11,474 nt of DNA, taken from an uncultured Pseudomonadota bacterium. Lineage in GTDB: Bacteria > Pseudomonadota > Gammaproteobacteria > Burkholderiales > SG8-39. A program made the translations under genes and the position numbers. The notes below the pieces were generated by a model, which worked only from the letters and a program-made list of their open reading frames with translations, was not told the DNA's origin and did not search any database. Shown piece after piece: positions 34-11,474 of the stretch. The stretch is taken from NCBI GenBank assembly GCA_903909415.1, contig CAIVVS010000237.1, positions 1-11,474 of the forward strand. The letters are read 5' to 3'. Position 1 is the first letter of the stretch. Every line of letters starts with the position of its first letter.

Positions 34-1317
34 ATGACCGCCCCTGTCAGCCCACCGTCCGGTACCGCCAGTCCTGCTTCCACCGGGGATGCCCTGGGCG
101 TGCTGCGCGAACGCGGCTTTGTGCGCCAATCCAACGACGAATCCGGGCTTTCTGCGCTGCTTTTGCGCGAAAAACTCACTTACTACGTCGGTTTTGACGC
201 CACCCGCGACAGCCTGCACTGCGGCAGCCTGATGCCCATCATGGCCATGGCCCACCTGCAGCGCGCCGGCCACCGGCCGATCGGCCTGATCGGCGGGGGC
301 ACGACCATGGTCGGCGACCCATCGGGCAAGACCGAGGACCGGCCGATGATCCCGCGCGAGGAAATCGTCGCCAACGGGCAGGGCATCCTCGGCCAGTTGC
401 GCCGCTACCTGGACCTGGACGGCCAGCGCGGCCTGTTCCTGGACAACGCCGACTGGCTGCTGGACCTGAACTACGTCGCCTTCCTGCGCGACATCGGCCG
501 CCACTTCCGGGTCAACGAGATGATCCGCGCCGACGCCTACCGGGCCCGGCTGGAGCGGGAAGAGGGCCTGTCCTTCATCGAGTTCAACTACCAGCTGCTG
601 CAGGCCTACGACTTCCTGTGCCTGAACGAGCAGCAGGGCTGCGCGCTGCAGATGGGCGGGGACGACCAGTGGAGCAACATGCTGGCCGGCGTCGACCTGG
701 TGCGCCGCAAGCACGCCAGGCAGGCTTACTGCCTGACCTTCCCGCTGCTGACCACCGCGCGCGGCGAGAAGATGGGCAAGACCGCTGCCGGCGCGGTCTG
801 GCTGGATGCCGCCAAGACCCCGCCCTACGAGTTCTTCCAGTACTGGGTGAACACCGACGACCGCGACGTCGGGCGCTTCCTCGCCTACTTCACCTTCCTG
901 CCCATGCCCGAGGTGAACCGCATGGCGGCACTGCAGGGCGCCGAGCTCAATGCCGCCAAGCGCGTGCTGGCCTTCGAGGTCACCAAGCTCGCGCACGGCG
1001 GGCAGGCGGCGCAGGCGGCGATGGACGCCGCGCAGGCGGCCTTCGGCGGCGCGGGGGACGAGTCGGCCCTGCCGACCACGCAGCTGGCGCGCGCGCAGTT
1101 CGAGGCCGGCATCGCGCTGGTGGACCTGCTGACCGAATGCAAGCTGGCCGAGTCCAAGTCGGCGGCGCGCCGTCTGATCGTGCAGGGCGGGGTGCACCTG
1201 AACGGCAGCACCCGCACCGACGAGAAGGCGCGCATCGGCACCGGTGACCTCGACGGCGAGGGCGTGCTGCGCATCCGCGTCGGCAAGAAGACGCACCACC
1301 GCGTGGTCGTCGCCTGA
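34..1317 (+). CDS. tyrS: Tyrosyl-tRNA synthetase (TyrRS, class I)
   Basis: Charges tRNA-Tyr with tyrosine in the cytoplasm, using ATP. The 427-residue product has the usual length of the E. coli-type enzyme. The class I signature HIGH appears as HCGS (residues 62-65), followed by the GGGTTMVGDPSGKT stretch (87-100). The tyrosine-binding regions include NYQLLQAYDF (185-194) and the QMGGDDQWSN segment (206-215). The second signature KMSKS reads KMGKT (246-250). An S4-type RNA-binding domain occupies roughly the last 65 residues (CKLAESKSAARRLIVQGG onward). The first 20 residues are a Pro/Ser/Thr/Ala-rich extension of low complexity; no strong ribosome binding site lies in the 33 bases before the ATG, so a later start cannot be excluded. 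The catabolic gene downstream begins only 10 bases after the stop, an unusual partner for a translation gene. As I recall, Burkholderiales normally use a TyrRS of a different type (HLGH with an LGD-FT strand), so this could be a second copy; that is inference. Confidence 0.96.
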   Translation: MTAPVSPPSGTASPASTGDALGVLRERGFVRQSNDESGLSALLLREKLTYYVGFDATRDSLHCGSLMPIMAMAHLQRAGHRPIGLIGGGTTMVGDPSGKTEDRPMIPREEIVANGQGILGQLRRYLDLDGQRGLFLDNADWLLDLNYVAFLRDIGRHFRVNEMIRADAYRARLEREEGLSFIEFNYQLLQAYDFLCLNEQQGCALQMGGDDQWSNMLAGVDLVRRKHARQAYCLTFPLLTTARGEKMGKTAAGAVWLDAAKTPPYEFFQYWVNTDDRDVGRFLAYFTFLPMPEVNRMAALQGAELNAAKRVLAFEVTKLAHGGQAAQAAMDAAQAAFGGAGDESALPTTQLARAQFEAGIALVDLLTECKLAESKSAARRLIVQGGVHLNGSTRTDEKARIGTGDLDGEGVLRIRVGKKTHHRVVVA

Positions 1318-1327: not shown

Positions 1328-2320
1328 GTGAACGACGACCAGCCGCACGAAGAAAGTCCGCACGAAGAACACCCGCGCGACTTCGTCGGCTACGGCCCGA
1401 ACCCGCCCGACCCGCAATGGCCCGGCGGCGCGCGCGTCGCGGTGAACTTCGTGCTCAACGTCGAGGAAGGCTCGGAGTACGCCTACGACAACGGCGACGG
1501 CCGCTCCGAGACCACGCTCACTGACGCCGGCATGGGCCCGACCGGGGTCGAAGGGCGCGACCTCGCGGCCGAGTCCTTCTTCGAATACGGCACGCGCGTC
1601 GGCTTCTGGCGCCTGTTCCAACTGTTCCAGTCGCGCGGCGTGCCGCTGACCATCAGCGGCGCGGCGCTGGCGCTGGAAAAGAACCCGCCCATGGCGGCGG
1701 CGATTGCTGATGCCATGCGCGCCAACCGGGCCGAACTGCTGTGCCACGGCTGGCGCTGGGTAAACCAGTTCAACCTGCCGGAAGCAGAGGAACGCGAGCA
1801 CATCCGCCGCGCCATCGACAGCCTGCAGAAGACCCTGGGCGCGCGCCCGGACGGCTGGTACTGCCGCTACGGGCCCAGCCTGAACACGCGCCGGCTGCTG
1901 GCCGAGCACGGCTTCCTGTACGACTCCAACGCCTACAACGACGAGCTGCCCTACTGGACGCGCGTGCCCACCGCGCAGGGCGTGAAGCCGCACCTGGTGG
2001 TGCCGCACACCTTCGCGTCCAACGACAACAAGTACGCGCGCGGCTGGTTCGGCACCTCGGACGACTTCTACACGTGGACGCGCGACACCTTCGACGTGCT
2101 GTACCGCGAGGGCGCGACCCAGCCGAAGATCATGTCGGTGAGCCTGCACCTGCGCGTGTCCGGCCACCCGGGGCGCTCGGCCGGCGTGGAGCGCCTGCTG
2201 GACCACATCCAGTCGCACCGCGACGTGTGGCTGTGCCGGCGCATCGACATCGCGCGCCACTGGATGCGGACCCATCCCGCGCCTGACTGCCTTCCCTCCA
2301 ACGTCCCACCAGCGGGGTAA
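1328..2320 (+). CDS. PuuE-type allantoinase-like / polysaccharide deacetylase family (CE4 fold) protein
   Basis: A 330-residue protein of the PuuE branch of the polysaccharide deacetylase superfamily. Characterised PuuE hydrolyses allantoin to allantoate in the cytoplasm. Family blocks visible in order: RDFVGYGPNPPDPQWPG (17-33), the NVEEGSE strand (44-50) where PuuE has NYEEGGE, FEYGTRVGFWRL (85-96), CHGWRWVN (139-146), a YDSNAYNDELPYW block (198-210), and near the C-terminus SLHLR plus WLCRRIDIARHW. No signal peptide is present, so it should be cytoplasmic. Differences from the typical enzyme are Cys for Ser before HGWRW and Asn201 where DSD is usual, so the substrate may not be allantoin but another cyclic or linear ureide or imide. 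The N-terminus carries a polar repeat, QPHEESPHEEH. The start is GTG with a good AGGAG. It lies 10 bases after tyrS and 5 bases before the amidase gene, which suggests cotranscription with the amidase. Confidence 0.85.
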   Translation: MNDDQPHEESPHEEHPRDFVGYGPNPPDPQWPGGARVAVNFVLNVEEGSEYAYDNGDGRSETTLTDAGMGPTGVEGRDLAAESFFEYGTRVGFWRLFQLFQSRGVPLTISGAALALEKNPPMAAAIADAMRANRAELLCHGWRWVNQFNLPEAEEREHIRRAIDSLQKTLGARPDGWYCRYGPSLNTRRLLAEHGFLYDSNAYNDELPYWTRVPTAQGVKPHLVVPHTFASNDNKYARGWFGTSDDFYTWTRDTFDVLYREGATQPKIMSVSLHLRVSGHPGRSAGVERLLDHIQSHRDVWLCRRIDIARHWMRTHPAPDCLPSNVPPAG

Positions 2321-2325
2321 CCACC

Positions 2326-3270
2326 GTGCCAGCCACCCACCACCTGCCCGCCAGTCCCGCCACGTCCCACTGGGGTTTCCTCGACGCCAGGCTGCCGCCG
2401 GTGCTGCGCATGAAAAGCGGCGACCGGCTGGAGGTGGACACGGTGTCGGGCATGCCGCACCAGATGCCGCGCAGCGGTTTCGAGCACCTGCCCGAGATGG
2501 CGGCGATCCACGCGCAATGCGAACGCGGGCCGGGCCCGCACATCCTCAACGGCCCGGTGCATGTCGAGGGCGCCGAGCCGGGCGACGTGCTGGAGGTGCG
2601 CATCCTGGACGTGCGCCTGCGCCAGGACTGGGGCTACAACGTGATCCTGCCGCTGGCGGGTTCGCTGCCGGAGGACTTCCCCGAGGCGCACCTGAAGCAC
2701 ATCCGGCTGGACCGCGAGGCCATGGTCGGGCTCATGCCCTGGGGCGCGAAGGTGCCGCTGCGTCCGTTCTTCGGGATCATGTCCACCGCGCCGCGCCCGG
2801 AGTACGGGCGCATCACGTCGGTCGTGCCGCGCGAGTTCGGCGGCAACATCGACAACAAGGAACTGATCGCCGGCACCACGCTGTACCTGCCGGTGTTCGT
2901 GCCGGGCGCGGGCTTCTCGGTCGGGGACGGCCATGCGGTGCAGGGCGACGGCGAGGTCTGCCTGACCGCGATCGAGGCCTCGATGTCCGGCAGCTTCGAG
3001 CTCATCGTGCGCAAGGACCTGCGCCTCGACTTCCCGCGCGCCGAGACGCCCACGCACTGGATCACCATGGGCATGGACGCGGACCTGGACGACGCCGCCA
3101 AGCAGGCGCTGCGCGGCATGATCGCGCTGATCGTCGAAAAGGAAGGCATCGCCGCGCACGACGCCTACACGCTGTGCAGCCTGGCCTGCGACCTGCGCGT
3201 CACGCAGCTGGTGGACGGCAACAAGGGCATACACGCGATGCTCGCGAAGTCGCTGCTGGTGCGCGGCTAG
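2326..3270 (+). CDS. Acetamidase/formamidase (FmdA/AmdA) family amidase
   Basis: Family members release ammonia from small amides such as formamide or acetamide. The 314-residue protein is of the shorter family type. Recognisable blocks are an N-terminal HHLPASPATSHWGF (5-18), PVLRMKSGDRLEVDTVSG (25-42), the HILNGPVHVEGAEPGDVLEV motif (72-91), PLRPFFGIM (144-152), FGGNIDNKEL (171-180), and the glycine-rich LPVFVPGAGFSVGDGHAVQG stretch (188-207) ending in GEVCLTAIE. The start is GTG, 5 bases after the PuuE-like stop, with only a weak GGGG upstream, so translational coupling is likely. Its position right behind a cyclic-amide hydrolase suggests it hydrolyses an amide or carbamoyl product of that enzyme; this is inference. 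The natural substrate cannot be told from sequence. It is convergent with the AllA-like gene. Confidence 0.9.
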   Translation: MPATHHLPASPATSHWGFLDARLPPVLRMKSGDRLEVDTVSGMPHQMPRSGFEHLPEMAAIHAQCERGPGPHILNGPVHVEGAEPGDVLEVRILDVRLRQDWGYNVILPLAGSLPEDFPEAHLKHIRLDREAMVGLMPWGAKVPLRPFFGIMSTAPRPEYGRITSVVPREFGGNIDNKELIAGTTLYLPVFVPGAGFSVGDGHAVQGDGEVCLTAIEASMSGSFELIVRKDLRLDFPRAETPTHWITMGMDADLDDAAKQALRGMIALIVEKEGIAAHDAYTLCSLACDLRVTQLVDGNKGIHAMLAKSLLVRG

Positions 3271-3285
3271 CCGCGACGTCGCAGG

Positions 3286-3300
3286 GGCGCCTCAGGCGTC
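3286..3300. terminator. Weak hairpin between convergent genes (possible terminator)
   Basis: GGCGCC TCA GGCGTC forms a 6-bp stem (one G-U pair on the plus transcript) with a 3-base loop, 16 bases after the amidase stop and in the 73-base gap between convergent genes. No run of T follows on either strand, so it is at best a poor intrinsic terminator. Confidence 0.25.
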
Positions 3301-3343
3301 GGCCATCTCCGGCAAGGGAATGTCCCGGTACATCCGCGCCGCC

Positions 3344-3856
3344 TCAACTTGATTGCTTCAACACCACCTTGATGCCGAAGTGCTCATCCAGCCGGCAGGG
3401 ATGGTGGTCCGCCTGGTTGGTGTCGGCCAGTTCCAGGTTGAAGAAAGACTGCGAGGCCCCGTCGAAGAACGGTCCCGCATGCCAGGCGCTGCGTGCCAGC
3501 TGGATCGCCTGGTTGCCGGGGATGTGGAAGGCGCGGATGGTCGAGGGATCGCACAGCGCCTTCGGGTCATCGGGGTCGTTGGGTGGCGCGACCGCGATCA
3601 CCCAGGGCGCTCCGCCGGCCGAGCCGAGGCACTGCGTCACCTGCATGTGGCGCGTGATGTAGGAGAAGGCGAACTCGCGCCGCGCGATGTCCAGGATGTA
3701 GAAGCGCGGCGTGCCGCGGTCCAGCACCAGTTGCGCCTCGTCCGGGCCGAACAGCTTGCCGTCGGGCGAGCGTTCCAGTAGCGTGCCAAAAGGCCGGAAA
3801 TTGGCATAAGTGGCTGTTTCTATTGATATTTCAAGCGTGCGTGTGGGTCCGCTCAC
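3344..3856 (-). CDS. AllA-type ureidoglycolate lyase-like protein
   Basis: Ureidoglycolate lyase splits ureidoglycolate into glyoxylate and urea at the end of allantoin breakdown; relatives act on similar ureido compounds. The 170-residue length fits AllA, a small cupin-like barrel. Family features visible are FRPFGTLLE (20-28), ITRHMQVTQCL (67-77, matching the ERHPLGTQAF strand of AllA), WVIAVAPP (85-92), IRAFHIPGNQAIQLARSAWH (107-126, with the conserved Trp-His) and GPFF. The start is GTG at 3856, whose last two bases and the next A form the TGA stop of the upstream amidohydrolase gene (GTGA overlap); GAGG lies 5 bases before it. The open frame continues further upstream, but inside the amidohydrolase gene. 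The first 27 codons are strikingly AT-rich (ATA, TCA, ACA and similar), unlike the rest of the window. Family membership is clear; the exact substrate is not. Confidence 0.85.
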   Translation of the reverse strand: MSGPTRTLEISIETATYANFRPFGTLLERSPDGKLFGPDEAQLVLDRGTPRFYILDIARREFAFSYITRHMQVTQCLGSAGGAPWVIAVAPPNDPDDPKALCDPSTIRAFHIPGNQAIQLARSAWHAGPFFDGASQSFFNLELADTNQADHHPCRLDEHFGIKVVLKQSS

Positions 3857-3865
3857 CCCAGCCTC
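3853..3865 (-). promoter_or_regulatory. Coupled stop/start (GTGA) with GAGG ribosome binding site
   Basis: Read on the minus strand, GAGG (3865-3862) is followed by CTGGG and then GTGA (3856-3853), where GTG starts the AllA-like gene and TGA ends the amidohydrolase gene. This fixes the AllA-like start and implies translational coupling and matched production of the two enzymes. Confidence 0.75.
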
Positions 3866-5400
3866 GCAAACCGGTCCAATCCTCCCTGGGCCGCAGGCAG
3901 GTCCCGTGCCAGTGCCTCGCGCAGCAGCGGCTCGAACACCGCGCGCTCGCTGCGAGCGATGTCGCCGCCGCCGGCGTTGTCGCGCTCGTCCTGCGCCGCG
4001 AGTTCGTCCACTTCGGCCAGCAGCGCGTCCTCGTCCAGCCGCGTCGCACGCCCGCCCTGCAGCACCACCTCGCCCGCGACCAGCACCGTGTCCACCGCAT
4101 GCGCGGCCTCGTACATCACCAGGTGGCTGTAGGTCTCGCCGCGCGGGTGCCAGTCCAGCCCGCGCAGGTCCAGCAGCGCGAGGTCGGCGGCCGCGCCAGG
4201 CATGAGGGTGCCCAGCGGCGGCGCATCGGCGAGCCCGGCGTGCGCGGTGGCGAAGATGCGCGCCCCGCCGGTGGTCGCCATCGCGAAGGCGGCGCGCGAG
4301 TCCACCCAGTGCGCGTGGTCGATGTCGGTCACGCGCGACAGCAGCGAGGCGAACTTGGCCTGTTCCAGCACGCTCATGGACGCGCCGCTCTGGCCGTCGG
4401 TGCCCAGCCCGACGTTCACGCCGGCGGCGCGCAGCCGCGCGAGCGGGGCGATGCCGCTGCCCAGGTGCAGGTTGCTCACCGGGTTGTGGCTCACCGTGGC
4501 GCCGCGTTCGGCCGCGAGTTCCATGTCGCGCGGGGTGCACCAGACGAAATGCGCGAACGAGGTGCCCGGCCCCACCAGGCCGTGACGGTCCATGTAGCCG
4601 ACCATGCTGCCGTTCGCGTCGGGCGGCACCATCAGCGCCTGGGTGCGCGCCTCCAGCAGGTGGGTGTGCAGCCCGATGCCGTGCGCGCGCATGAACTCGC
4701 CGGCGAGCGCGAGCAGGCGCGCCGAGCAGCGTTGCGGCCCGTCCACGCCCAGCACCACCCCGACCAGCGGGTCGCCGCGCCAGCGTCCGAGCAGCTCGCC
4801 CATCGCCTCGAAGTAGGCCTCGGGCGCGGGCTTGGACATCGCCTGCCAGCGCGCACGCACCGCGGGCGGCAGCCGCGCCGGATCCAGCGGGAGGGACTGC
4901 AGGTAACTGAGGTCGTCGTACATCGGCGCGACCAGCGAGCGCATGCCGATGTCGCGGTAGGCGGTGAGCGCCGTGCCCACCGGCTCCACGCCGGGCAGCG
5001 CCCCGTAGCGCAGGTGGTCCACCTGCGCGGTGATCCCGCGCCTGAGCATCTCCAGCGCATGCAGCAGGCACGCTGCGCGCACCATGGCCATGCTGCGCGG
5101 CACCGGCCGCGCCATGGCCTGCATCACGAACAGGTCCAGCGGTTCGCCCGGCACCGTGCCGCGCAGCAGCGCCGAGTAGGAATGCGAATGCGCGTTGACC
5201 AGCCCGGGGATGGCCAGCCGTCCCGGGGCCTCGATGGTCTCGAACGGTTCGCTGAAGAACGGCGCGCCACCGGGTCCGGTCAGGGCGGCGATGCGCCCGT
5301 GCTCGATCCAGATGTCGCGCCGCGACGGCGCCGCCTCGCCGGCGTGCGCCAGCACCTCCGCGCCGCGGATGAGGCGGCGCCCGGCCGCGGCGGAAGGCAT
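3853..5400 (-). CDS. ATZ/TRZ-type metal-dependent amidohydrolase (cytosine/guanine deaminase-like)
   Basis: A 515-residue zinc- or iron-type TIM-barrel hydrolase of the amidohydrolase superfamily, in the group holding AtzB/TrzN, SsnA and guanine or 8-oxoguanine deaminases. These hydrolyse an exocyclic amino (or chloro/alkylamino) group on an N-heterocycle. Expected metal and catalytic residues are present: H71 and H73 in NAHSHSYSALLRG, H247 and E250 in LHTHLLE, H284 in SFAHFVWC, and D335 in NVGLGTDG. The SHNPVSNLHLGSGIAP block (304-319) is typical of the group. The active-site loop reads GTDGQSGASMS where many members have GTDG(A)ASNNNLDM, and THLLEARTQ replaces the usual HLAET, so substrate range may be unusual. 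The protein is longer than the usual 440-470 residues; the extra part is a C-terminal tail rich in Asp, Glu, Arg and Ala. The start ATG lies 8 bases after the stop of the binding-protein gene. No signal peptide; cytoplasmic. Confidence 0.9.
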   Translation of the reverse strand: MPSAAAGRRLIRGAEVLAHAGEAAPSRRDIWIEHGRIAALTGPGGAPFFSEPFETIEAPGRLAIPGLVNAHSHSYSALLRGTVPGEPLDLFVMQAMARPVPRSMAMVRAACLLHALEMLRRGITAQVDHLRYGALPGVEPVGTALTAYRDIGMRSLVAPMYDDLSYLQSLPLDPARLPPAVRARWQAMSKPAPEAYFEAMGELLGRWRGDPLVGVVLGVDGPQRCSARLLALAGEFMRAHGIGLHTHLLEARTQALMVPPDANGSMVGYMDRHGLVGPGTSFAHFVWCTPRDMELAAERGATVSHNPVSNLHLGSGIAPLARLRAAGVNVGLGTDGQSGASMSVLEQAKFASLLSRVTDIDHAHWVDSRAAFAMATTGGARIFATAHAGLADAPPLGTLMPGAAADLALLDLRGLDWHPRGETYSHLVMYEAAHAVDTVLVAGEVVLQGGRATRLDEDALLAEVDELAAQDERDNAGGGDIARSERAVFEPLLREALARDLPAAQGGLDRFARLG

Positions 5401-5408
5401 GGCCTTGC

Positions 5409-6470
5409 TCAGAGCGTGCGCTGGCCCCGCGGGGGCAGGAAGCTCGAGTTGAAGATCTGGTCGGGGTTGGGCATGGTCTTGAGCGCGAAGGCCTTGGCCA
5501 CGTCCTCGACCACGGTCTCCAGGCGCAACTTGTTCACCTCGCCTAGGCCCTTGGAACGGACGTTGTCGGTGACCACGAAGTTCTCGAACAGCCCGCGCAG
5601 CCGGCGTATCTCGGTGGCTTCGTCCACCAGCGGCTCGCGCGCCTTGATGAACTTCACCGCGGCCGGGTAGTCGGCGATGGTCTCCTTCATCGCGCGGTTG
5701 AAGGCGCGCAGGAACGAGGCGACCGCCTTGGGCTGCTCGGCGGCGAACTTGGGATTGACCAGGATGGCGTTGCCGAAGGCGCGCACGCCGTAGTCCTTGT
5801 AGTAGAACACCTTGAGCTCGCCTTCCTTGGCGCCCACCGCCATCGCGGAAATGACGCCGCTGGGCTGGTAGCCGGTGACCACGTCGACCTGGCCGCGCAC
5901 CAGCATCGTTTCGCGCAGCGCCGGGTCCATGGACTGCCACTTCACGCTCGCCGGGTCGATGCCCTGCGCGCGCGCGAACAGCGGGAACAGCTTGCGCCCC
6001 GCGTCGAATATCGGCGCGCCGAAGGTCTTGCCCACCAGCTGTTTCGGTTCGGTGATGTTGGACTTGGTCAGCGCCATCGCCGCTGCCGGCGTCGCGTCCA
6101 TCACCATGTACACCGCCTGCACGCGCGAGGCGGGGTTGGTGCCGTTGTTGGCGAGGAACTCGATCAGCGCGCTGGTATCGCCATAGCCCATGTCGTAGGC
6201 CGACGAGGCGGTGCGGCTGACCGCCAGGGCGGAACCCGCGCCCGGGTCGAGTTGCACCTCCAGGCCCTCCTCCTTGAAATAGCCCTTGGCCTGCGCCAGG
6301 AAGAACGGGGCCACCTGGCCGTCGATGCGCCAGTCGAGCTGGAAGCGCAGCTTGGTCTGTGCCTGGACGCCGCCGGACAGGGCGGACAGCGAAGCGGCGA
6401 TCGCGCCGAGCAGCAGGGTGCGCGTGGCGGTGCGGCGCAGGGCGGTGGTGACGGGGTGCAGCAAGGACAT
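5409..6470 (-). CDS. ABC transporter periplasmic substrate-binding protein, NMT1/THI5 (SsuA/ThiY-like) family
   Basis: A 353-residue exported binding protein. Residues 1-37 form a Sec signal peptide: positive region LRRTATR, hydrophobic core LLLGAIAASLSALS, and an A-x-A-like cleavage after GGVQA. The mature part starts QTKLRFQLDW, with the family's core segment QVAPFFLAQAKGYFKEEGLEV, then DMGYGDTSALIEFLANN and LVRGQVDVVTGYQPSGVISA. No lipobox cysteine is seen. Family members deliver thiamine-pyrimidine precursors, sulfonates, hydroxymethylpyrimidines, or other small heterocycles to an ABC importer. Its place as first gene of an operon with an amidohydrolase and an AllA-like enzyme suggests it captures the heterocycle or ureide that these enzymes degrade; this is inference. 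No permease or ATPase gene is present in the window. A strong GAGGAG precedes the chosen ATG. Confidence 0.92.
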   Translation of the reverse strand: MSLLHPVTTALRRTATRTLLLGAIAASLSALSGGVQAQTKLRFQLDWRIDGQVAPFFLAQAKGYFKEEGLEVQLDPGAGSALAVSRTASSAYDMGYGDTSALIEFLANNGTNPASRVQAVYMVMDATPAAAMALTKSNITEPKQLVGKTFGAPIFDAGRKLFPLFARAQGIDPASVKWQSMDPALRETMLVRGQVDVVTGYQPSGVISAMAVGAKEGELKVFYYKDYGVRAFGNAILVNPKFAAEQPKAVASFLRAFNRAMKETIADYPAAVKFIKAREPLVDEATEIRRLRGLFENFVVTDNVRSKGLGEVNKLRLETVVEDVAKAFALKTMPNPDQIFNSSFLPPRGQRTL

Positions 6471-6478
6471 GACGTGGT

Positions 6479-6484
6479 CTCCTC
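6479..6484 (-). promoter_or_regulatory. Ribosome binding site of the substrate-binding protein gene
   Basis: GAGGAG on the minus strand, 8 bases before ATG at 6470. It selects this ATG over open-frame extensions further upstream, and this start also places the signal peptide exactly at the N-terminus. Confidence 0.8.
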
Positions 6485-6573
6485 GTATCGTTGGGTCCTG
6501 CGGCCCGCAGCTACCCGCAGTCGGCACACCGACCGGCGAATCGCCCGGGATCAAACTGGTAGGAAAGGACTGC

Positions 6574-6589
6574 AGCAAGCTCCATGCCC
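6574..6589 (-). promoter_or_regulatory. Putative sigma-54 (RpoN) -24/-12 promoter
   Basis: On the minus strand GGGCATG-GAGC-TTGCT matches the consensus TGGCACG-N4-TTGCW at 10 of 12 specified positions, including the essential GG (6588-6587) and GC (6576-6575) with exactly 10 bases between. Transcription would start near 6563, leaving a leader of roughly 90 bases before the binding-protein ATG. RpoN control suits genes for scavenging nitrogen. A chance match cannot be ruled out by eye. Confidence 0.5.
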
Positions 6590-6756
6590 AATGGCGCTTG
6601 TCCGAAGCGGGGCCGCTCCAAGGGCACAGACGCAGGGTACTGCGGCCAGCGCGCACCGGCGAGGGGCGTTTGCATGATTTTGGCACGGGCTGCTGATCGC
6701 CACCCGGTCAGGCTGGCTTTGACCTGGCCCGCCGCTGCGGATGCCGGGAACAATTT

Positions 6757-6772
6757 GTTAGCACTAGCTAAC
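6757..6772. promoter_or_regulatory. 16-base dyad GTTAGC-N4-GCTAAC, possible regulator site
   Basis: A perfect 6-bp inverted repeat with a 4-base spacer (ACTA on the plus strand). It lies about 200 bases upstream of the predicted sigma-54 start site, which suits an upstream activator site for an enhancer-binding protein. It lacks a T-run, so it is not a terminator. It does not match the NtrC consensus (GCAC-N-GTGC type). The binding protein is unknown. Confidence 0.4.
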
Positions 6773-6778
6773 CGGTAA

Positions 6779-6804
6779 AGGCCCGCTGATCTATTGCCGG
6801 GCCT
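6779..6804 (-). terminator. Hairpin at the end of the alpha/beta hydrolase gene
   Basis: On the minus strand AGGCCCG, a 12-base loop, and CGGGCCT form a perfect 7-bp GC-rich stem followed by TTTACC. The first arm overlaps the TAG stop codon of the hydrolase gene. Only two further T follow the stem, so termination may be partial, but the place is right for an intrinsic terminator. Confidence 0.45.
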
Positions 6805-7972
6805 AGCGCAATGTCGCGGCTAGCCAGTCGGCCATGGCCGGCACCATGTCCATGTTGCGGTTGCACAGGGAGTGGCCACCGTCGGCGTATTCGTGCACGT
6901 CCACGGTGCCGCCTGCCTCCCTGCGAATCAGTTCGACCTCCTCGCGCTCGACCAGCGGGTCCTGTCCGCCGTGCACCAGCAGGATGGGGCAGCGGATGCG
7001 GCCGAGCTTGCCGTCCAGCGAGCCGTGCGCGCGGATGTAGCCGCGCAGCTCGGAGAAGGTCGCCATGCCGTACAGGTCGCGAGCCTCCTCGCGCACGTCC
7101 ACGGGGGCCGAGGGACTGGACTTGCGCCGGAAGTCGTAGCCGCCGGAGAGGGTCACCAGCGCGCGCACCCGCGGCTCCTCGGCCGCGGCCAGCAACGCGA
7201 GGTTGCCGCCGGTGCTCTGGCCCCAGAGCGCGATGCGCGAGGCATCGACGTCGGGCTGCGTGGCCAGCCAGTCGAACACCGCCGACACCACCGCCGGGAA
7301 ACGCTCCAGCCGCAGCGGCGCGCCGCCGTTCTTCACCGACAGCTCGCCTTGTCCCGGCCCGTCGATCGCCAGCACCGCGATGCCGCGCGCCAGCAGCGCG
7401 CTGCCCCAGTGGTGCAGTTCCTCCTTCACCGAGTTCGCGCCGGGCACCTGGACCGCGAGCGGGAACGGTCCCTTGCCCGCGGGCAGGCGCAGGTAACCGG
7501 GCAGCGCGTCCACGCCGCAGTGCGCGCGCCCGCAGGGCACGCGCACCAGCGTCACCTGCGGCGTGAGCAAGGGCGCGGCGCGGCGGTACAGTGCGACGCG
7601 CTGCGCCTGCCCCTCGCGCCGTCGTGCGTCCTCGGGCCGGGTGAACAGCTGCGCGAAGTGGTACAGCAGCGCGGCGCGCAGCAGGTGCTCGCCGGCGCTG
7701 GTGTGGCGTCCCGCGGCCTCCGCCGCCTCGCCCAGCAGGCGGAAGCGCTCGGCCGCATCGCGCCAGGCGTCGTACCAGGCGTGGAAGCTCGAGATGCGCG
7801 CGACGATGCGCTGCAGCTCGCTGTGGTCCAGCTGCGCGCCGATGGCCGCGCGCGACAGCCGGAAGAACAGCTCGGTGCGCGACACCTGCTCGGCGCCGAG
7901 CAGGCGGATGAAGGTGTCCACCGTCCGGTAGAACTGGTCGGCTTCCTGGTGGTCTGCTTGTTCGTCGCTCAA
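6803..7972 (-). CDS. Alpha/beta hydrolase, FrsA / 2,6-dihydroxypseudooxynicotine hydrolase-like
   Basis: A 389-residue alpha/beta hydrolase with a long helical N-terminal part (about residues 1-135) before the catalytic domain. This layout resembles the FrsA group and 2,6-dihydroxypseudooxynicotine hydrolase, which cleaves a carbon-carbon bond in nicotine breakdown. The triad is visible: nucleophile S253 in WGQSTGGNLAL, D338 in LLVHGGQDPLVE, and H367 in YADGGHSLCN. The oxyanion strand is AVQVPGANSVKEE (173-185), and AIDGPGQGE (202-210) is typical of the group. The start chosen is TTG at 7972, because AAGGGAG lies 6 bases before it; an in-frame ATG at 8029 has no ribosome binding site and would add 19 residues of low complexity. 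No signal peptide. It is transcribed away from the oxygenase operon and ends in a hairpin. Substrate unknown; a C-N or C-C cleavage in the same heterocycle pathway is a reasonable guess. Confidence 0.85.
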   Translation of the reverse strand: MSDEQADHQEADQFYRTVDTFIRLLGAEQVSRTELFFRLSRAAIGAQLDHSELQRIVARISSFHAWYDAWRDAAERFRLLGEAAEAAGRHTSAGEHLLRAALLYHFAQLFTRPEDARRREGQAQRVALYRRAAPLLTPQVTLVRVPCGRAHCGVDALPGYLRLPAGKGPFPLAVQVPGANSVKEELHHWGSALLARGIAVLAIDGPGQGELSVKNGGAPLRLERFPAVVSAVFDWLATQPDVDASRIALWGQSTGGNLALLAAAEEPRVRALVTLSGGYDFRRKSSPSAPVDVREEARDLYGMATFSELRGYIRAHGSLDGKLGRIRCPILLVHGGQDPLVEREEVELIRREAGGTVDVHEYADGGHSLCNRNMDMVPAMADWLAATLR

Positions 7973-7978
7973 TTCCGT

Positions 7979-7985
7979 CTCCCTT
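7979..7985 (-). promoter_or_regulatory. Ribosome binding site favouring a TTG start
   Basis: AAGGGAG on the minus strand, followed by ACGGAA and TTG (7972). It is the only good Shine-Dalgarno sequence near the 5' end of the hydrolase gene and is the reason for preferring TTG over the upstream ATG codons at 8029 and 8017. Confidence 0.55.
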
Positions 7986-8070
7986 GTGGCCGTGGCCGGG
8001 CCGGCCGCGCGCGGCATGTTTCCGGCCATTGTGACATCCGGGCGCGGGCGGGGAGCGACAGCGGCGGCCG

Positions 8071-8085
8071 CACCTTTCTCAGGTG
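8071..8085. promoter_or_regulatory. Inverted repeat CACCT-N5-AGGTG, possible operator
   Basis: A perfect 5-bp inverted repeat with a TTCTC spacer in the divergent region between the hydrolase and oxygenase genes, ending 13 bases before the proposed -35 element. Position fits an activator or repressor site controlling one or both divergent units. No specific regulator family can be named. Confidence 0.35.
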
Positions 8086-8098
8086 GTGATAGCCCGCT

Positions 8099-8127
8099 AC
8101 GACATGCCCGGGGTGAGGGCCTACAAT
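8099..8127 (+). promoter_or_regulatory. Putative sigma-70 promoter of the Rieske oxygenase operon
   Basis: ACGACA (8099-8104; 4 of 6 to TTGACA), a 17-base spacer, and TACAAT (8122-8127; 5 of 6 to TATAAT). Start of transcription would be near 8134, giving a short leader of about 24 bases before the ATG at 8158. Confidence 0.5.
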
Positions 8128-8157
8128 GTTTTTCCGTCCATCGCCCCGGCCCCGCCC

Positions 8158-9357
8158 ATGTCCGCCCTCGACAAGACCGACGACCTGTTCGACCCCGCCA
8201 CCTACGCGGCGCTGCGCCGGCCGCTGCTGGAAGCCAGCGGCCTGCCGCCCGCGGCCTACTACGACCCGGCGTTCTACGAGCGCGAGCGGCGCGCGATCTT
8301 CTGGTCGGGCTGGGTGCTGGTGGGACGCGCCGACCGGCTGGCGAAGAAGGGCGACTACTTCACCATCGAGTTCGCCGGCGCGCACCTGATCGTGCTGCGC
8401 GACCTGCAGGGCGGCATCCGCACCTACGCCAACACCTGCCGCCACCGCGGCGCCAAGCTGCTGGAGGGCGAGGGCAACTGCCGCGCCATCGTCTGCCCCT
8501 ACCACTCGTGGACCTATGCGCTGGACGGCAGCCTGCGCGGCCACGCCGGCATGGAAAAGACCGAGGGCTTCGACGCCACCGCCAGCGGCCTGCACGCGGT
8601 GCGCACCGACACCTGGGGCGGCTTCGTGTTCGTGTGCCTGGACCCGGCCGCGCCGGAGCTGGCCGCGTGGCTGGGCGACCTGCCGCAGCGCCTGGAAATG
8701 TACGGGCTGGACGAGATGGTGCAGACCCGCCGCAAGGAGTTCCGCGTGCGCTGCAACTGGAAGCTCTGGGTGGAGAACTACATGGAGGGCTACCACGTGC
8801 CCACCGTGCACCGCTCCACCATCAGCAAGATGCAGGAGATCAACCACGCAGAGGACCCGCCGGCGCGCGGCCAGTTCAACACCATCCACGAGCAGCACAA
8901 GGGCACGCTCGCGCTGCTGGACGGCGACTCCGGCTTCCCGGCCATCGAGACCCTGGCCGCGCACGGCGCGGACGGCGCCGGCAGCCGCTTCATCCTGGTC
9001 TACCCGATGGGCATGGTCGCGCTCACCATCGACTGCATGTGGACCTTCGAGTGCCACCCGCAGGGCCCGGAGGAGACGCTGGTGGTGCACACCTCGTGCT
9101 TCCCGAAGTCGCGCGTCGCGCGCGAGGACTTCGAGCAGCTCGCGGCCAACTACTACAAGCGCCAGGACATCGTGGTGCGCGAGGACAACGAGGTCTCGGA
9201 GATGCAGCACCAGGGCCTGCGCTCGCCGTTCGCCTCGGCCGGGCGCTACTCGCACAAGGAAAAGATCGTGCACGCGCTGGACAACTGGGTGGTGGACCGC
9301 GTGCTGGGCACCAAACCGCCGGTTCAACCGCATGTTCGACTAGAAGCCGTGGGCTGA
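8158..9357 (+). CDS. Rieske non-heme iron oxygenase, alpha (catalytic) subunit
   Basis: Catalyses O2-dependent hydroxylation, dealkylation or ring oxidation using electrons from a separate reductase. The Rieske [2Fe-2S] site is C94-R-H96 and C113-PY-H116. The mononuclear iron site is H213 and H218 in ENYMEGYHVPTVH, with an acidic third ligand probably in R341-E342-D343. The residue bridging the two metal centres would be E210, where many ring dioxygenases have Asp; Glu here recalls oxygenases acting on quaternary amines such as carnitine or glycine betaine. The ATG at 8158 starts the natural N-terminus; upstream sequence overlaps the promoter. No reductase or beta subunit gene is in the window. 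The last 15 sense codons lose the strong G/C third-base bias, and a +1 frame ending at 9343 restores it, so the true C-terminus may differ. First gene of a plus-strand operon with a RutB-like gene 24 bases behind. Confidence 0.92.
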   Translation: MSALDKTDDLFDPATYAALRRPLLEASGLPPAAYYDPAFYERERRAIFWSGWVLVGRADRLAKKGDYFTIEFAGAHLIVLRDLQGGIRTYANTCRHRGAKLLEGEGNCRAIVCPYHSWTYALDGSLRGHAGMEKTEGFDATASGLHAVRTDTWGGFVFVCLDPAAPELAAWLGDLPQRLEMYGLDEMVQTRRKEFRVRCNWKLWVENYMEGYHVPTVHRSTISKMQEINHAEDPPARGQFNTIHEQHKGTLALLDGDSGFPAIETLAAHGADGAGSRFILVYPMGMVALTIDCMWTFECHPQGPEETLVVHTSCFPKSRVAREDFEQLAANYYKRQDIVVREDNEVSEMQHQGLRSPFASAGRYSHKEKIVHALDNWVVDRVLGTKPPVQPHVRLEAVG

Positions 9358-9368
9358 GCCCCGCGCAG

Positions 9369-9373
9369 AGGAG
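9369..9373 (+). promoter_or_regulatory. Strong ribosome binding site of the RutB-like gene
   Basis: AGGAG inside a purine-rich run (9367-9377), 8 bases before ATG at 9382. It is the clearest Shine-Dalgarno of the plus-strand operon and suggests high translation of this gene. Confidence 0.7.
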
Positions 9374-9381
9374 AGGATCCA

Positions 9382-10092
9382 ATGAGCAACGCACACATCG
9401 ACGCCCGCCCCTACGCGCTGGACTGGGACGTTTCCGAGACCGCGCTGATCGTGGTCGACATGCAGAACGGCTTCCTCAAGCCGGGCGGCTACTTCGACAA
9501 GGTCGGCTACGACCTGTCGCACTCGCCGCGCACCATAGGCATGGTCGCCCGCTCGGTCGAGGCCGCGCGCAAGGCGGGCATGCAGGTGGTGTTCATCCAG
9601 AGCGGCTGGGATGCGCGCCACCTCTGGGTGGGCGGGCCGGACGCGCCCATGTACCACAAGTCCGAGGCGCAGATCCTGATGCGCCAGCACCCGGAGATCG
9701 GCAAGACCCTGATCACCGAGGGCAACTGGGACTACGAGATCGTCGACGAGTTGAAGCCGCGCGAGGACGAGCTGGTGGTGCGCAAGTCGCGCTACTCGGG
9801 TTTCGCCGGCACCAACCTCGACCAGGTGCTGCGCGCGCGCCGCGTGCGCAACCTCGCCTTCACCGGCGTGGCGACCAATGCCTGCGTGGAGACCACGCTG
9901 CGCGAGGCCTTCCACCGCGAGTACTTCGTGATGCTGCTGGAGGACGCCACCCACCACGCCGGCCCGCAGTACCTGAAGGACGCGACCGTGTGGAACATCC
10001 TCACCTTCTTCGGCTGGGTCACCACCACCGAGGCCTTCGAGCAGGCGCTGGCGCCGGCGCGCGCTGCCTCCGCTACGGCGGCTGCGGCTTGA
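9382..10092 (+). CDS. rutB: RutB-like ureidoacrylate amidohydrolase (isochorismatase-family cysteine hydrolase)
   Basis: RutB hydrolyses ureidoacrylate (or its peracid) to aminoacrylate and carbamate in the Rut pyrimidine pathway. The 236-residue protein shows the cysteine-hydrolase triad: D26 in LIVVDMQNG, K135 in VVRKSRYSGF, and C168 in FTGVATNACVE, with the family cis-peptide region just before the Cys. RutB-specific stretches include GGYFDKVGYDLS, WDYEIVDELKP, RYSGF, EYFVMLLEDATHHAGP and a C-terminal FFGWV block, which separate it from biuret hydrolase, nicotinamidase and maleamate amidase relatives. The last 13 residues are Ala-rich and nonconserved. It lies between a Rieske oxygenase and a beta-hydroxyacid dehydrogenase, while RutA, RutC and RutF genes are not seen here. 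The family placement is firm from visible motifs; the substrate could be another N-carbamoyl enamine or amide. Confidence 0.88.
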   Translation: MSNAHIDARPYALDWDVSETALIVVDMQNGFLKPGGYFDKVGYDLSHSPRTIGMVARSVEAARKAGMQVVFIQSGWDARHLWVGGPDAPMYHKSEAQILMRQHPEIGKTLITEGNWDYEIVDELKPREDELVVRKSRYSGFAGTNLDQVLRARRVRNLAFTGVATNACVETTLREAFHREYFVMLLEDATHHAGPQYLKDATVWNILTFFGWVTTTEAFEQALAPARAASATAAAA

Positions 10093-10119
10093 GCTGCACT
10101 GGCTGGTAACGAGCCGCGC

Positions 10120-10950
10120 ATGCCCACGATAGGTTTCTACGGCCTGGGCACCATGGGCTACGCCATGGCGTCGCGGCTCGCCGGCGCCGGCCTGCCGGTT
10201 GCGGTGGCGGACAGGGACGAGGCGCTGGTCGCGCGCTGGCGCGGAGAGCATGCGGCGGCCACGCACGCGCCCGACTCCGCCGAGGTGGTGATCAGCTGCG
10301 TCACCGACGAGCCGGCCGCGCGGTCCCTGCTGCTGGGCGAGGGGCTCCTGTCCCGCGCCGGCGCCGGACAACTGTTCATCGACCACACCACCACCTCGCC
10401 GGCCTTCGCGCGCGAGGCGGACGCGCTGGCCGCCGCGCGCGGCGCCGCCTTCATCGACGCGCCGGTGTCCGGCGGCGCTGCCGGCGCCAGGGACGGCAGC
10501 CTGTCGGTGATGGCCGGCGGCGAGGACGAGGCGGTGCGCCTCGCCTCCACCGTGCTGAAGCACTACGCCGCGCGCATCACGCCGCTGGGCGCGAGCGGCG
10601 CGGGCCAGGTCGGCAAGCTCTGCAACCAGGTGGCGATCGCCGGCATCGTGCGCGGCCTCGCCGAGGCGGTGGCGCTGGCGCGCGCCGCGCACCTGGACGA
10701 GGCGGCGCTGCTGGACGCGCTGGCCGTGGGCACGGCGCGCTCCAACCAGCTGGAACAGCACCGCGACAAGCTGCTGGATGCGAAGCAGGGCTTTGCCGCC
10801 AGCTTCGAGTGGCTGGACAAGGACCTGGCCCATGCCCTGGACGAGGCCGCCGCGCACCGCGCGCCGCTGCCGATGGCGAAGCTGGTCAAGGACATGCTCG
10901 GCCGCCGCCCGGTCGAGCCGGTGGGCCTGGCGCGCCGCAAGACGACCTGA
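10120..10950 (+). CDS. 3-hydroxyisobutyrate dehydrogenase-family NAD(P)-dependent reductase
   Basis: A 276-residue beta-hydroxyacid dehydrogenase, cytoplasmic, interconverting a 3-hydroxy acid and its semialdehyde. The Rossmann motif is G8LGTMG13. Acidic D31 at the end of the second strand (VAVADRD) suggests NAD(H) preference. Substrate-binding S117-G118-G119 lies in FIDAPVSGGAAG, and the catalytic Lys is K166 with N169 in GQVGKLCNQ; the KDLAHALDEA helix near residue 230-240 is typical. Candidates are malonate or methylmalonate semialdehyde reductase (end of Rut-type pyrimidine breakdown, giving 3-hydroxypropionate or 3-hydroxyisobutyrate) or tartronate semialdehyde reductase (glyoxylate disposal after ureidoglycolate cleavage). 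Both suit this neighbourhood. It starts 27 bases after the RutB-like stop, with only a weak ribosome binding site. Confidence 0.88.
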   Translation: MPTIGFYGLGTMGYAMASRLAGAGLPVAVADRDEALVARWRGEHAAATHAPDSAEVVISCVTDEPAARSLLLGEGLLSRAGAGQLFIDHTTTSPAFAREADALAAARGAAFIDAPVSGGAAGARDGSLSVMAGGEDEAVRLASTVLKHYAARITPLGASGAGQVGKLCNQVAIAGIVRGLAEAVALARAAHLDEAALLDALAVGTARSNQLEQHRDKLLDAKQGFAASFEWLDKDLAHALDEAAAHRAPLPMAKLVKDMLGRRPVEPVGLARRKTT

Positions 10951-10983
10951 ACGCTTACCGACCACAACCCGTCCGGATACCCC

Positions 10984-11474
10984 ATGGCCCTGCAGATCGC
11001 GCGCTTCGACACCGCCAACCAGGATGACGTCAGCGGGCTGGCGGCCGCGATCGCGGGGTTCGGCGCAGACCGCATCGCGCGCATCGCGGTGTTCCTCAAG
11101 GTCGAGGGCGACTACGACGACGGCTCGCGCGAGCGCGCCCGCGCGGCACTGGAGAAACTGGTCGCCGACACCGGCCTCGCGGACCGCGCGCAACTGCTGA
11201 CCGCAGTCGGCTGCGAGGGCGTGTCCACGCCCTTCGGCTATGCGCTGGTGCAACTGAAGGACCAGCCGCCTTCCAGCGGCACCGCCCCGCGCCTCGCGAT
11301 GGGCGTGGCGCGCAGCGATGCGCCGCCGGCCGACGAGCTGGATTCCGCGGTGCTCGCGCACCGCGTCGCCGACACGGTGCGTGCCGCGGTGGCGGACGCG
11401 GGCCTTTCCATCGACCAGGTGGCGATGTGCTTCGTCAAGGTGCCGCAGCCGCCGGCGGGCGCGGGCCGCGCGCA
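10984..11474 (+). CDS. Cyanuric acid hydrolase/barbiturase-family ring-opening amidohydrolase (partial, 5' end)
   Basis: The first 163 residues; the gene runs off the right edge (family length about 360). Members (AtzD, TrzD, barbiturase) open cyanuric acid or barbituric acid rings using Ser-Lys dyads in three related domains. Visible are the start of domain A, DVSGLAAAI (15-23), the Lys strand IAVFLKVEGD with K39, the GCEGVSTP turn (76-83), then the domain linker LAMGVARS and a long helix ending VAMCFVKVPQP, which matches the conserved strand ending in VKxP. The family's SGG(T/C)EG motif here reads A74-V-G-CEG, so the domain A serine is replaced by alanine, and the usual S/T-P-H after it is T-P-F. 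Whether domains B and C keep their dyads lies beyond the window. It starts 33 bases after the dehydrogenase gene in the same operon. Confidence 0.8.
   Translation, partial: MALQIARFDTANQDDVSGLAAAIAGFGADRIARIAVFLKVEGDYDDGSRERARAALEKLVADTGLADRAQLLTAVGCEGVSTPFGYALVQLKDQPPSSGTAPRLAMGVARSDAPPADELDSAVLAHRVADTVRAAVADAGLSIDQVAMCFVKVPQPPAGAGRA

Follow-up and report, generated by a model that had tools for sequence, protein, structure and literature searches.

A recurrent gene cluster of Burkholderiales, probably for the uptake and oxidation of a nitrogen-rich ring, with RutB-like and AtzD-like subfamilies of changed active site

Do the ten open reading frames (ORFs) carried by an 11,474-nt stretch of DNA from an uncultured member of the Burkholderiales, SG8-39 (contig CAIVVS010000237.1, assembly GCA_903909415.1; the whole stretch is called the window below), belong together, and on what kind of compound could their products act? 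They encode relatives of PuuE, FmdA, AllA, ATZ/TRZ-type amidohydrolases, NMT1-type binding proteins, 2,6-dihydroxypseudooxynicotine (DHPON) hydrolase, Rieske oxygenases, RutB, beta-hydroxyacid dehydrogenases and AtzD, and a sequence-only reading had proposed one pathway, or two merged ones, for a substituted pyrimidine, hydantoin or similar ring, with a gene set matching no standard route. The ten ORFs were scanned with Pfam and NCBIfam. All ten families named by that reading were recovered above their Pfam gathering scores, the last gene being incomplete; no protein scored high enough to pass the curated cut-off for any of the NCBIfam models that it matched (the AtzD-like piece being incomplete), so that the names used here are family labels. 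The cluster belongs to a conserved, uncharacterised gene set, seen here in Burkholderiales, the probable function of which is to take up and oxidise a nitrogen-rich ring. In agreement with the earlier claim, no described pathway with this gene set was found in the open-access literature (subscription papers and preprints lay outside the scope).

With the Rieske protein as query on genome contigs 11 loci were found, the best of which (L002, from a Burkholderiales metagenome-assembled genome) encodes a protein 61% identical. L002 also holds relatives of the PuuE-like (type PuuE1, 74%), NMT1-type (63%), AllA-like (57%), RutB-like (69%), reductase (45%) and AtzD-like (39%) proteins. Together with L025 and L033 it makes up the core loci, which lie in three other Burkholderiales genomes, and six genes, for the Rieske, RutB-like, reductase, AtzD-like, NMT1-type and AllA-like proteins, are common to all three within a span of 9–12 kb. 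PuuE1 joins this core in two of the three loci (L002 and L025), L033 having the PuuE2 type only. A window-type amidohydrolase is seen in one core locus (L033, 33% identity), and its link to the cluster is weak because an equally distant second copy (35%) lies elsewhere in the genome of L033. Relatives of the FmdA-like and DHPON-hydrolase-like proteins occur in none of the three core loci, with one partial match to FmdA elsewhere in one of these genomes.

As a control, 14 loci with distant Rieske relatives (28–50% identity) were inspected, and relatives of PuuE, AllA, NMT1, RutB, the reductase and AtzD were present in none of them, the exceptions among the remaining families being L004, with an FmdA relative (37%), and L003, with an amidohydrolase (26%). 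Two of these loci (L021 and L063) are on contigs shorter than 4 kb, and the count omits L010 and L011 (weak partial Rieske match, no other match) and the further Rieske copies of genome G001 (L013–L019). Since three other genomes, and none of the 14 control loci, unite the core families, their association goes beyond chance. An independent sign of linkage was provided by identically sized longest contigs in the lists of relatives (38 AtzD, 44 RutB and 34 AllA proteins listed, only contigs of at least 10 kb being compared): the AtzD and RutB lists have 14 in common (one being L002's own), the AllA and AtzD lists seven and the AllA and RutB lists six.

The linkage of the core genes is firm, and the greater part of the window seems to form a single catabolic unit. 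The proposal of a single pathway stands in this form for the core; it does not extend to the FmdA-like and DHPON-hydrolase-like genes, and for the amidohydrolase the connection is loose. The failure of those two genes to travel with the core, together with the presence of genes on both strands, would suit a chance juxtaposition of two or more unrelated operons, but L002 and L025 both hold, in one place, genes that the window distributes over three transcription units (PuuE; AllA and NMT1; Rieske, RutB, reductase and AtzD). Such a juxtaposition is very improbable as an account of the locus and already unlikely for the core genes, a judgement that applies to the core and not to the FmdA-like or DHPON-hydrolase-like gene.

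In an order sample, Rieske matches at 1e-70 were obtained in 5 of 399 genomes, with the core in G001 and G240 and the match of G357 on a 3.4 kb contig; by family, one of five genomes was Rieske-positive in that of G001 and two of 74 in that of G240. A class sample gave matches at 1e-90 in 4 of 369 genomes, with the core in G240 only and the match of G724 on a 3.8 kb contig. The search for AllA by family returned 0/4 (family of G006), 0/11 (G357) and 2/392 (G827), and every genome with a core locus has a single AllA-like gene, G827 having none. In a plasmid collection the Rieske (945 records) and RutB (817 records) queries matched at less than 60% identity only, and the AllA query found five Novosphingobium records only (25–28%). 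On a contig of G001 (C44) different from that of its main cluster, a PuuE2-type gene (52% to the L002 PuuE2) comes immediately after a gene for a relative of the window amidohydrolase (35%; L062, 9249–11566).

Inspection of the active sites revealed that two of the hydrolytic families depart from the enzymes after which they are usually named. The RutB-like protein is close to true RutB (8bkd, E 9e-74) and scores 287.3 bits, below the TIGR03614 cut-off (377.95). In the alignment to 8bkd the catalytic residues D26, K135 and C168 are kept and Ser74 is placed where RutB has Asn72, a residue with a role in the pocket (RutB numbering, with positions set by this alignment). The best 120 of 558 matches comprise 109 close relatives (58–98% identity) and 11 at 52–56%. 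The triad is maintained in the close relatives (Asp in 107 with two gaps, Lys and Cys in 109 each), all 109 of which have Ser at the Asn72 position; the Tyr29 position is Phe in 107, with two gaps, and both Asn and Tyr are present in 11/11 of the more distant group. The copies of the core loci are 67–71% identical to the window protein. The label RutB was rejected on account of the score below the cut-off and the replacement of Asn72 by Ser.

In cyanuric acid hydrolase, as described in PMC4051656, three Ser-Lys pairs are found (79/40, 226/156 and 333/285), with Ser226 as the likely nucleophile and Ser226/Lys156 as the only pair absolutely conserved across the family (119 sequences). For the L025 protein, 67 relatives were listed (54–100% identity, counting the query itself and the copy in L002; scoring was limited to the 7995 candidates sharing most words), and the equivalent positions were tallied in them. 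The Ser226 position is occupied by Ile (37), Val (29) or Phe (1) and never by Ser, and the Ser79 position, which belongs to domain A, by Ala (44), Thr (22) or Ser (1). The three lysines are kept in 67/67, and Ser333 is present in 65, with Thr in the other two. A shift of the alignment by one residue near Ser226 is possible, mainly in sister families with Ser one place later; in the core family this next place holds Thr (58), Ala (7) or Cys (2). The window copy (163 residues, less than half of the approximately 355 in relatives) retains the equivalents of Lys40, Lys156 and Arg52 and has Ala for Ser79; it stops before Ser226, the loss of which is thus assigned to the window by subfamily only. 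The piece is 35–39% identical to the core-locus copies and scores 50 bits against an NCBIfam cut-off of 360, being incomplete, and the best structures for its relatives are found at E 3e-34 and 2e-32. The label barbiturase/cyanuric acid hydrolase was rejected, the Ser226 nucleophile being absent from this subfamily.

These changes bear on a pyrimidine, barbiturate or hydantoin route, in which the Rieske oxygenase would, by oxidation, turn a substituted pyrimidine into a barbiturate-like ring, the AtzD-like protein would open it and the RutB-like protein would remove a carbamoyl group. The closeness to true RutB with its intact triad, the clear family membership of the AtzD-like relatives and the setting of sister AtzD-like genes in other Burkholderiales, beside an amidohydrolase gene and with an ornithine-cyclodeaminase-family gene not far off, speak for such a route, but the substitution of Ser226 by Ile or Val in 66 of the 67 relatives (Phe in the other) and the uniform exchange of Asn72 speak against it. 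Moreover, none of the ten ORFs of the truncated window is RutA-like, no search aimed at RutA having been made. We regard this route as rather unlikely, and the earlier names RutB and barbiturase/cyanuric acid hydrolase have to be given up, both proteins falling in subfamilies with changed active sites.

The sister AtzD-like family was read at seven loci (L047–L053, other Burkholderiales) out of ten genomes carrying it and is 38–42% identical to the L002 copy. It has no clear Ser226, with Phe or Ser one place later. Its gene adjoins an ATZ/TRZ amidohydrolase gene in six of the seven loci, the seventh being a 4 kb contig. The four loci checked for further neighbours (L047, L048, L050 and L052) also have an amidase and an ornithine-cyclodeaminase-family gene close by. 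In L048, two different AtzD-like genes (5924–6976 and 8959–10035) flank one amidohydrolase gene.

The remaining proteins give pointers to the substrate. The PuuE-like protein matches PuuE of the PDB (3cl6) at E 5e-88, is 76% identical to PuuE1 of L025 and scores 335.1 bits, below the TIGR03212 cut-off (424.6). The AllA-like protein passes the PF04115 gathering score (37.3 vs 23 bits) and stays far below the equivalog cut-offs of NCBIfam (best 26.1 vs 230–282 bits); its profile finds the AllA structures 1xsr, 1xsq, 1yqc and 2bdr (E 4e-6 to 2e-5), it is 57–59% identical to the copies in the three core loci, and 156 relatives were collected at E 1e-3. Among culturable bacteria, Pseudacidovorax intermedius has relatives of the AllA-like (59%) as well as the RutB-like (65%) protein, and Aquabacterium sp. 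J223 has one of the AllA-like protein (63%). The best NCBIfam models for the amidohydrolase are N-ethylammeline chlorohydrolase (179 bits) and 8-oxoguanine deaminase (175 bits), both below cut-off, and it carries HxH, HLLE, AHF and TDG stretches, which we take to be the motif patterns of such enzymes. The NMT1-type protein is 36% and 32% identical to those of L025 and L033, where ABC ATPase and permease genes adjoin it. The reductase, 39–47% identical to the core-locus copies, belongs to the family proposed earlier and scores higher as 2-hydroxy-3-oxopropionate reductase (TIGR01505, 152 vs a cut-off of 341 bits) than as the 3-hydroxyisobutyrate dehydrogenase first suggested (132 vs 292 bits). 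The FmdA-like protein reached 89 bits against a cut-off of 500, and the label formamidase was rejected on this score.

The core loci contain further genes. Two related flavoproteins of about 480 residues, FMO1 and FMO2, are present in all three, those of L002 and L025 matching Pfam families of the FAD-NAD(P)-binding and Lys/Orn-monooxygenase-like kinds and those of L033 being assigned by similarity. The FMO1 of L033 has a lone weak structure match (3d1c, E 4e-4). A UbiH/HpxO-type FAD hydroxylase is found in L002 and L025. Nitrile enzymes of two unrelated kinds occur across the three loci: L025 and L033 have a fused nitrile hydratase with the stretch CTLCSC, which fits the motif CxxC[ST]C of the alpha part (alpha part 226 vs 250 bits in L025), and L002 has a Nit6803-type nitrilase (276 vs a cut-off of 503 bits) with candidate Glu, Lys and Cys residues. 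L025 and L033 also have the ABC permease and ATPase, a second reductase and a BD-FAE-type hydrolase. None of the flavoproteins, nitrile enzymes, UbiH/HpxO-type hydroxylases, ABC permeases and ATPases, second reductases or BD-FAE-type hydrolases was seen among the ten ORFs of the window, which stops inside the AtzD-like gene.

A cousin cluster, G1117:C34, combines AllA (54%), PuuE1 (71% to the L002 PuuE1), two PuuE2 and FMO1 (50%) with three UbiH/HpxO-type hydroxylases, a PucD-like xanthine-dehydrogenase-type subunit (641 vs 784 bits) and an FAD-binding dehydrogenase subunit, and is possibly a pathway for a methylxanthine-type compound or purine analogue. It extends over about 25 kb (L073/L074) and also includes DUF3891, asparaginase-like and creatininase-family genes. 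A second place in the same genome, C42, has AllA, FMO2, an ABC importer, a BD-FAE hydrolase, an amidase and an AtzH-like protein, and G1132:C180 yielded, with the queries used, only an AllA relative and an amidase of the C42 kind. The PuuE-like and AllA-like proteins, the flavin hydroxylases, the amidohydrolase near 8-oxoguanine deaminase and G1117:C34 favour a route of purine or allantoin type over pyrimidine or triazine breakdown, and the gene types that PMC7373994 describes downstream of xanthine/urate riboswitches, listed further below, point the same way. The interpretation of the sequence-only reading is supported in part.

On the observed footing of family identity, core linkage, conserved catalytic motifs and subfamily-specific changes, we infer a substrate, an order of steps and every reaction as follows. 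We favour, tentatively and at slightly under an even chance, an oxidative route not described before, by which a modified purine or a cyclic ureide derived from one would be degraded, with a lower half of allantoin type. The window would hold one end of this cluster, devoted to the catabolism of a heterocycle rich in nitrogen. An NMT1/SsuA-type ABC importer would take up the ring compound, the guanine-deaminase-like amidohydrolase would remove an exocyclic amine, and the Rieske oxygenase would oxidise the ring, assisted in relatives by the UbiH/HpxO-type hydroxylase and the two flavoproteins. The PuuE-like hydrolase could then open a hydantoin-like ring, the AllA-like lyase split a ureido-carbinol, the RutB-like hydrolase cut an acyclic amide or carbamoyl group and the NAD-dependent reductase deal with a semialdehyde product, with nitrile conversion as an additional step in relatives.

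Several observations weigh against this purine or cyclic-ureide proposal. Orthology is less sure for the NMT1-type proteins of L025 and L033 (32–36%) and the AtzD-like proteins (35–39%) than for the Rieske, RutB-like, AllA-like and PuuE1 proteins, and neither PuuE1 nor the flavin hydroxylase is present in the 40 kb examined of L033. The L002 hydroxylase is only distantly HpxO-like, HpxO being its fourth-best NCBIfam model (70.7 bits vs the NF033623 cut-off of 500), and for the hydroxylases of G1117:C34 HpxO is the third or fourth match (64–83 bits). No flavin hydroxylase, xanthine dehydrogenase or Rieske reductase was seen among the ten window ORFs scanned, and the dehydrogenase subunits of G1117:C34 match nothing in the window, in the core loci or in the flanking DNA read. 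Plain purine breakdown has no use for a nitrile hydratase or nitrilase. Rfam detected no xanthine-I (NMT1 motif) riboswitch: at the gathering score eight sources gave no match, and at E 0.5 the core loci gave none either; the window yielded, at E 1, only M23, below its threshold. Finally, the nearest structure to the Rieske protein is carnitine monooxygenase (6y9c), which points to N-dealkylation.

In an N-dealkylation route the Rieske oxygenase would strip N-methyl groups from an N-methylated ring or ureide, such as methylxanthine, methylallantoin or betaine, and the hydrolases would process the remainder. The Rieske protein is 56–61% identical to its copies in the core loci, and besides 6y9c it is near 4qup, an entry listed as monooxygenase/demethylase. 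The Glu of its EN(Y/F)MEGYH stretch, which we take to be the bridging residue, is present in 4/4 orthologues and aligns with a Glu of carnitine monooxygenase. The match to that enzyme, on the other hand, spans query residues 55–247 only, and no reductase partner for the Rieske protein lies among the ten ORFs. In favour of this route, the degradation of trimethylallantoin in caffeine C-8 oxidation is called 'not yet fully characterized' in a review (PMC4408171). We consider N-dealkylation fairly improbable.

The two unrelated nitrile enzymes across all three core loci point to a shared nitrile, and the starting compound could be a ring that carries or yields one, such as a 7-cyano-7-deazapurine, broken down by deamination, nitrile hydration or hydrolysis and oxidative ring opening. 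The guanine-deaminase-like amidohydrolase of the window, weakly matched in L033, would fit; against this, the ORFs scanned include no nitrile enzyme (the window may be too short to reach one), both kinds stay below their NCBIfam cut-offs, and the nitrile may arise in the breakdown of some other compound. We consider this reading quite improbable. A narrower version, a dedicated breakdown of a nitrile-bearing or nitrile-generating purine analogue of the 7-cyano-7-deazaguanine family, in which the serine-less AtzD-like protein and the RutB-like protein with its rebuilt pocket would act on ring-opened deazapurine intermediates, has a slim chance of being right.

The features of the window are listed below. 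From left to right, the puuE-like and fmdA-like genes follow tyrS on the plus strand, a minus-strand group extends from the allA-like to the DHPON-hydrolase-like gene, and the group from the Rieske to the atzD-like gene (first 163 codons), again on the plus strand, diverges from it, the facing starts at 8029 and 8158 being separated by 128 bases. The genes are open frames with third-position GC of 0.81–0.96; the lowest value is that of the AllA-like gene, the remaining genes lying at 0.92–0.96. No relative of the tyrosyl-tRNA synthetase was found in the three core loci. The M23 RNA match of Rfam, at 1636–1681 inside the puuE-like gene, reaches 27.5 bits against a threshold of 41.2 and is probably due to chance.

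Features of the window, with coordinates, strand and the basis of each assignment
Feature	Coordinates	Strand	Basis and remarks
Tyrosyl-tRNA synthetase	34..1317	+	Housekeeping flank outside the cluster; recognised by eye in the translation, without family search
PuuE-like cyclic-amide hydrolase (polysaccharide-deacetylase family)	1328..2320	+	PF01522 (Polysacc_deac_1)
FmdA-family amidase, accessory	2326..3270	+	PF03069 (FmdA_AmdA), E 1e-37
AllA-like lyase (ureidoglycolate lyase family), own subfamily	3344..3856	-	PF04115 (Ureidogly_lyase), E 3e-9
ATZ/TRZ-type amidohydrolase, deaminase-like	3853..5400	-	PF01979 (Amidohydro_1); start 5400 picked by eye at ATG
NMT1/SsuA-type binding protein	5409..6470	-	PF09084, E 9e-34; signal-like N-terminus by eye
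Alpha/beta hydrolase like DHPON hydrolase, accessory	6803..8029	-	Pfam; best solved structure 2jbw (2,6-dihydroxypseudooxynicotine hydrolase), E 2e-37
Rieske oxygenase alpha subunit, carnitine-monooxygenase-like	8158..9357	+	PF00355 and PF00848 (Ring_hydroxyl_A); start taken from alignment
RutB-like cysteine amidohydrolase, own subfamily	9382..10092	+	Pfam Isochorismatase; RutB by NCBIfam
Beta-hydroxyacid-dehydrogenase-family reductase	10120..10950	+	PF03446 (NAD_binding_2) and PF14833 (NAD_binding_11)
AtzD/barbiturase-family protein, N-terminal part	10984..11474	+	PF09663 (Amido_AtzD_TrzD), E 1e-13, 10984-11472; runs off window end

Automatic misnaming of these proteins is likely, since the subfamilies lack residues on which the names rest or which their bearers share; one source labels the AtzD-like relatives cyanuric acid amidohydrolase and the RutB-like relatives ureidoacrylate peracid hydrolase. 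Solving the cluster would assign a substrate to a recurrent gene set and would provide an AtzD-family protein that works without the known nucleophile, if it is an enzyme. It might also supply enzymes for steps past allantoin-type intermediates, described as not fully characterised in the 2015 caffeine review (PMC4408171).

With respect to known systems, the gene types described in PMC7373994 downstream of xanthine/urate riboswitches include NMT1-type proteins, HcaE-type dioxygenases and 8-hydroxyguanine/guanine-deaminase-like amidohydrolases; for the xanthine-I (NMT1 motif) riboswitch the cluster resembles these sets in all three types and differs in the absence of a detected riboswitch. The Rut pathway is alike in a single protein with the RutB triad, the subfamily differing from it by Ser for Asn72 and Phe for Tyr29. 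AtzD and TrzD are alike in Pfam membership and in the three lysines, but among the relatives Ser226 is lost in 67/67 and Ser79 in 66/67. The caffeine C-8 oxidation genes of Pseudomonas sp. CBB1 (cdhABC, tmuM, tmuH, tmuD and orf1-3, as listed in PMC4408171) find their likeness, by gene list, in the cousin G1117:C34, with its xanthine-dehydrogenase-type subunit, flavin hydroxylases and allantoinase-like genes, whereas the core loci have no match to the dehydrogenase subunits of that cousin. The hpx purine oxidation genes (Klebsiella hpxDE and hpxO) with the allantoin pathway are alike in Rieske, PuuE-like and AllA-like proteins, and in the UbiH/HpxO-type hydroxylase of two relatives (hpxDE being set against the cluster by its description in PMC7373994 and not by sequence). 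The difference is that no member reaches the NCBIfam cut-off for HpxO, PuuE or AllA, and that the cluster and its relatives possess, in addition, RutB-like, AtzD-like, reductase and nitrile enzymes.

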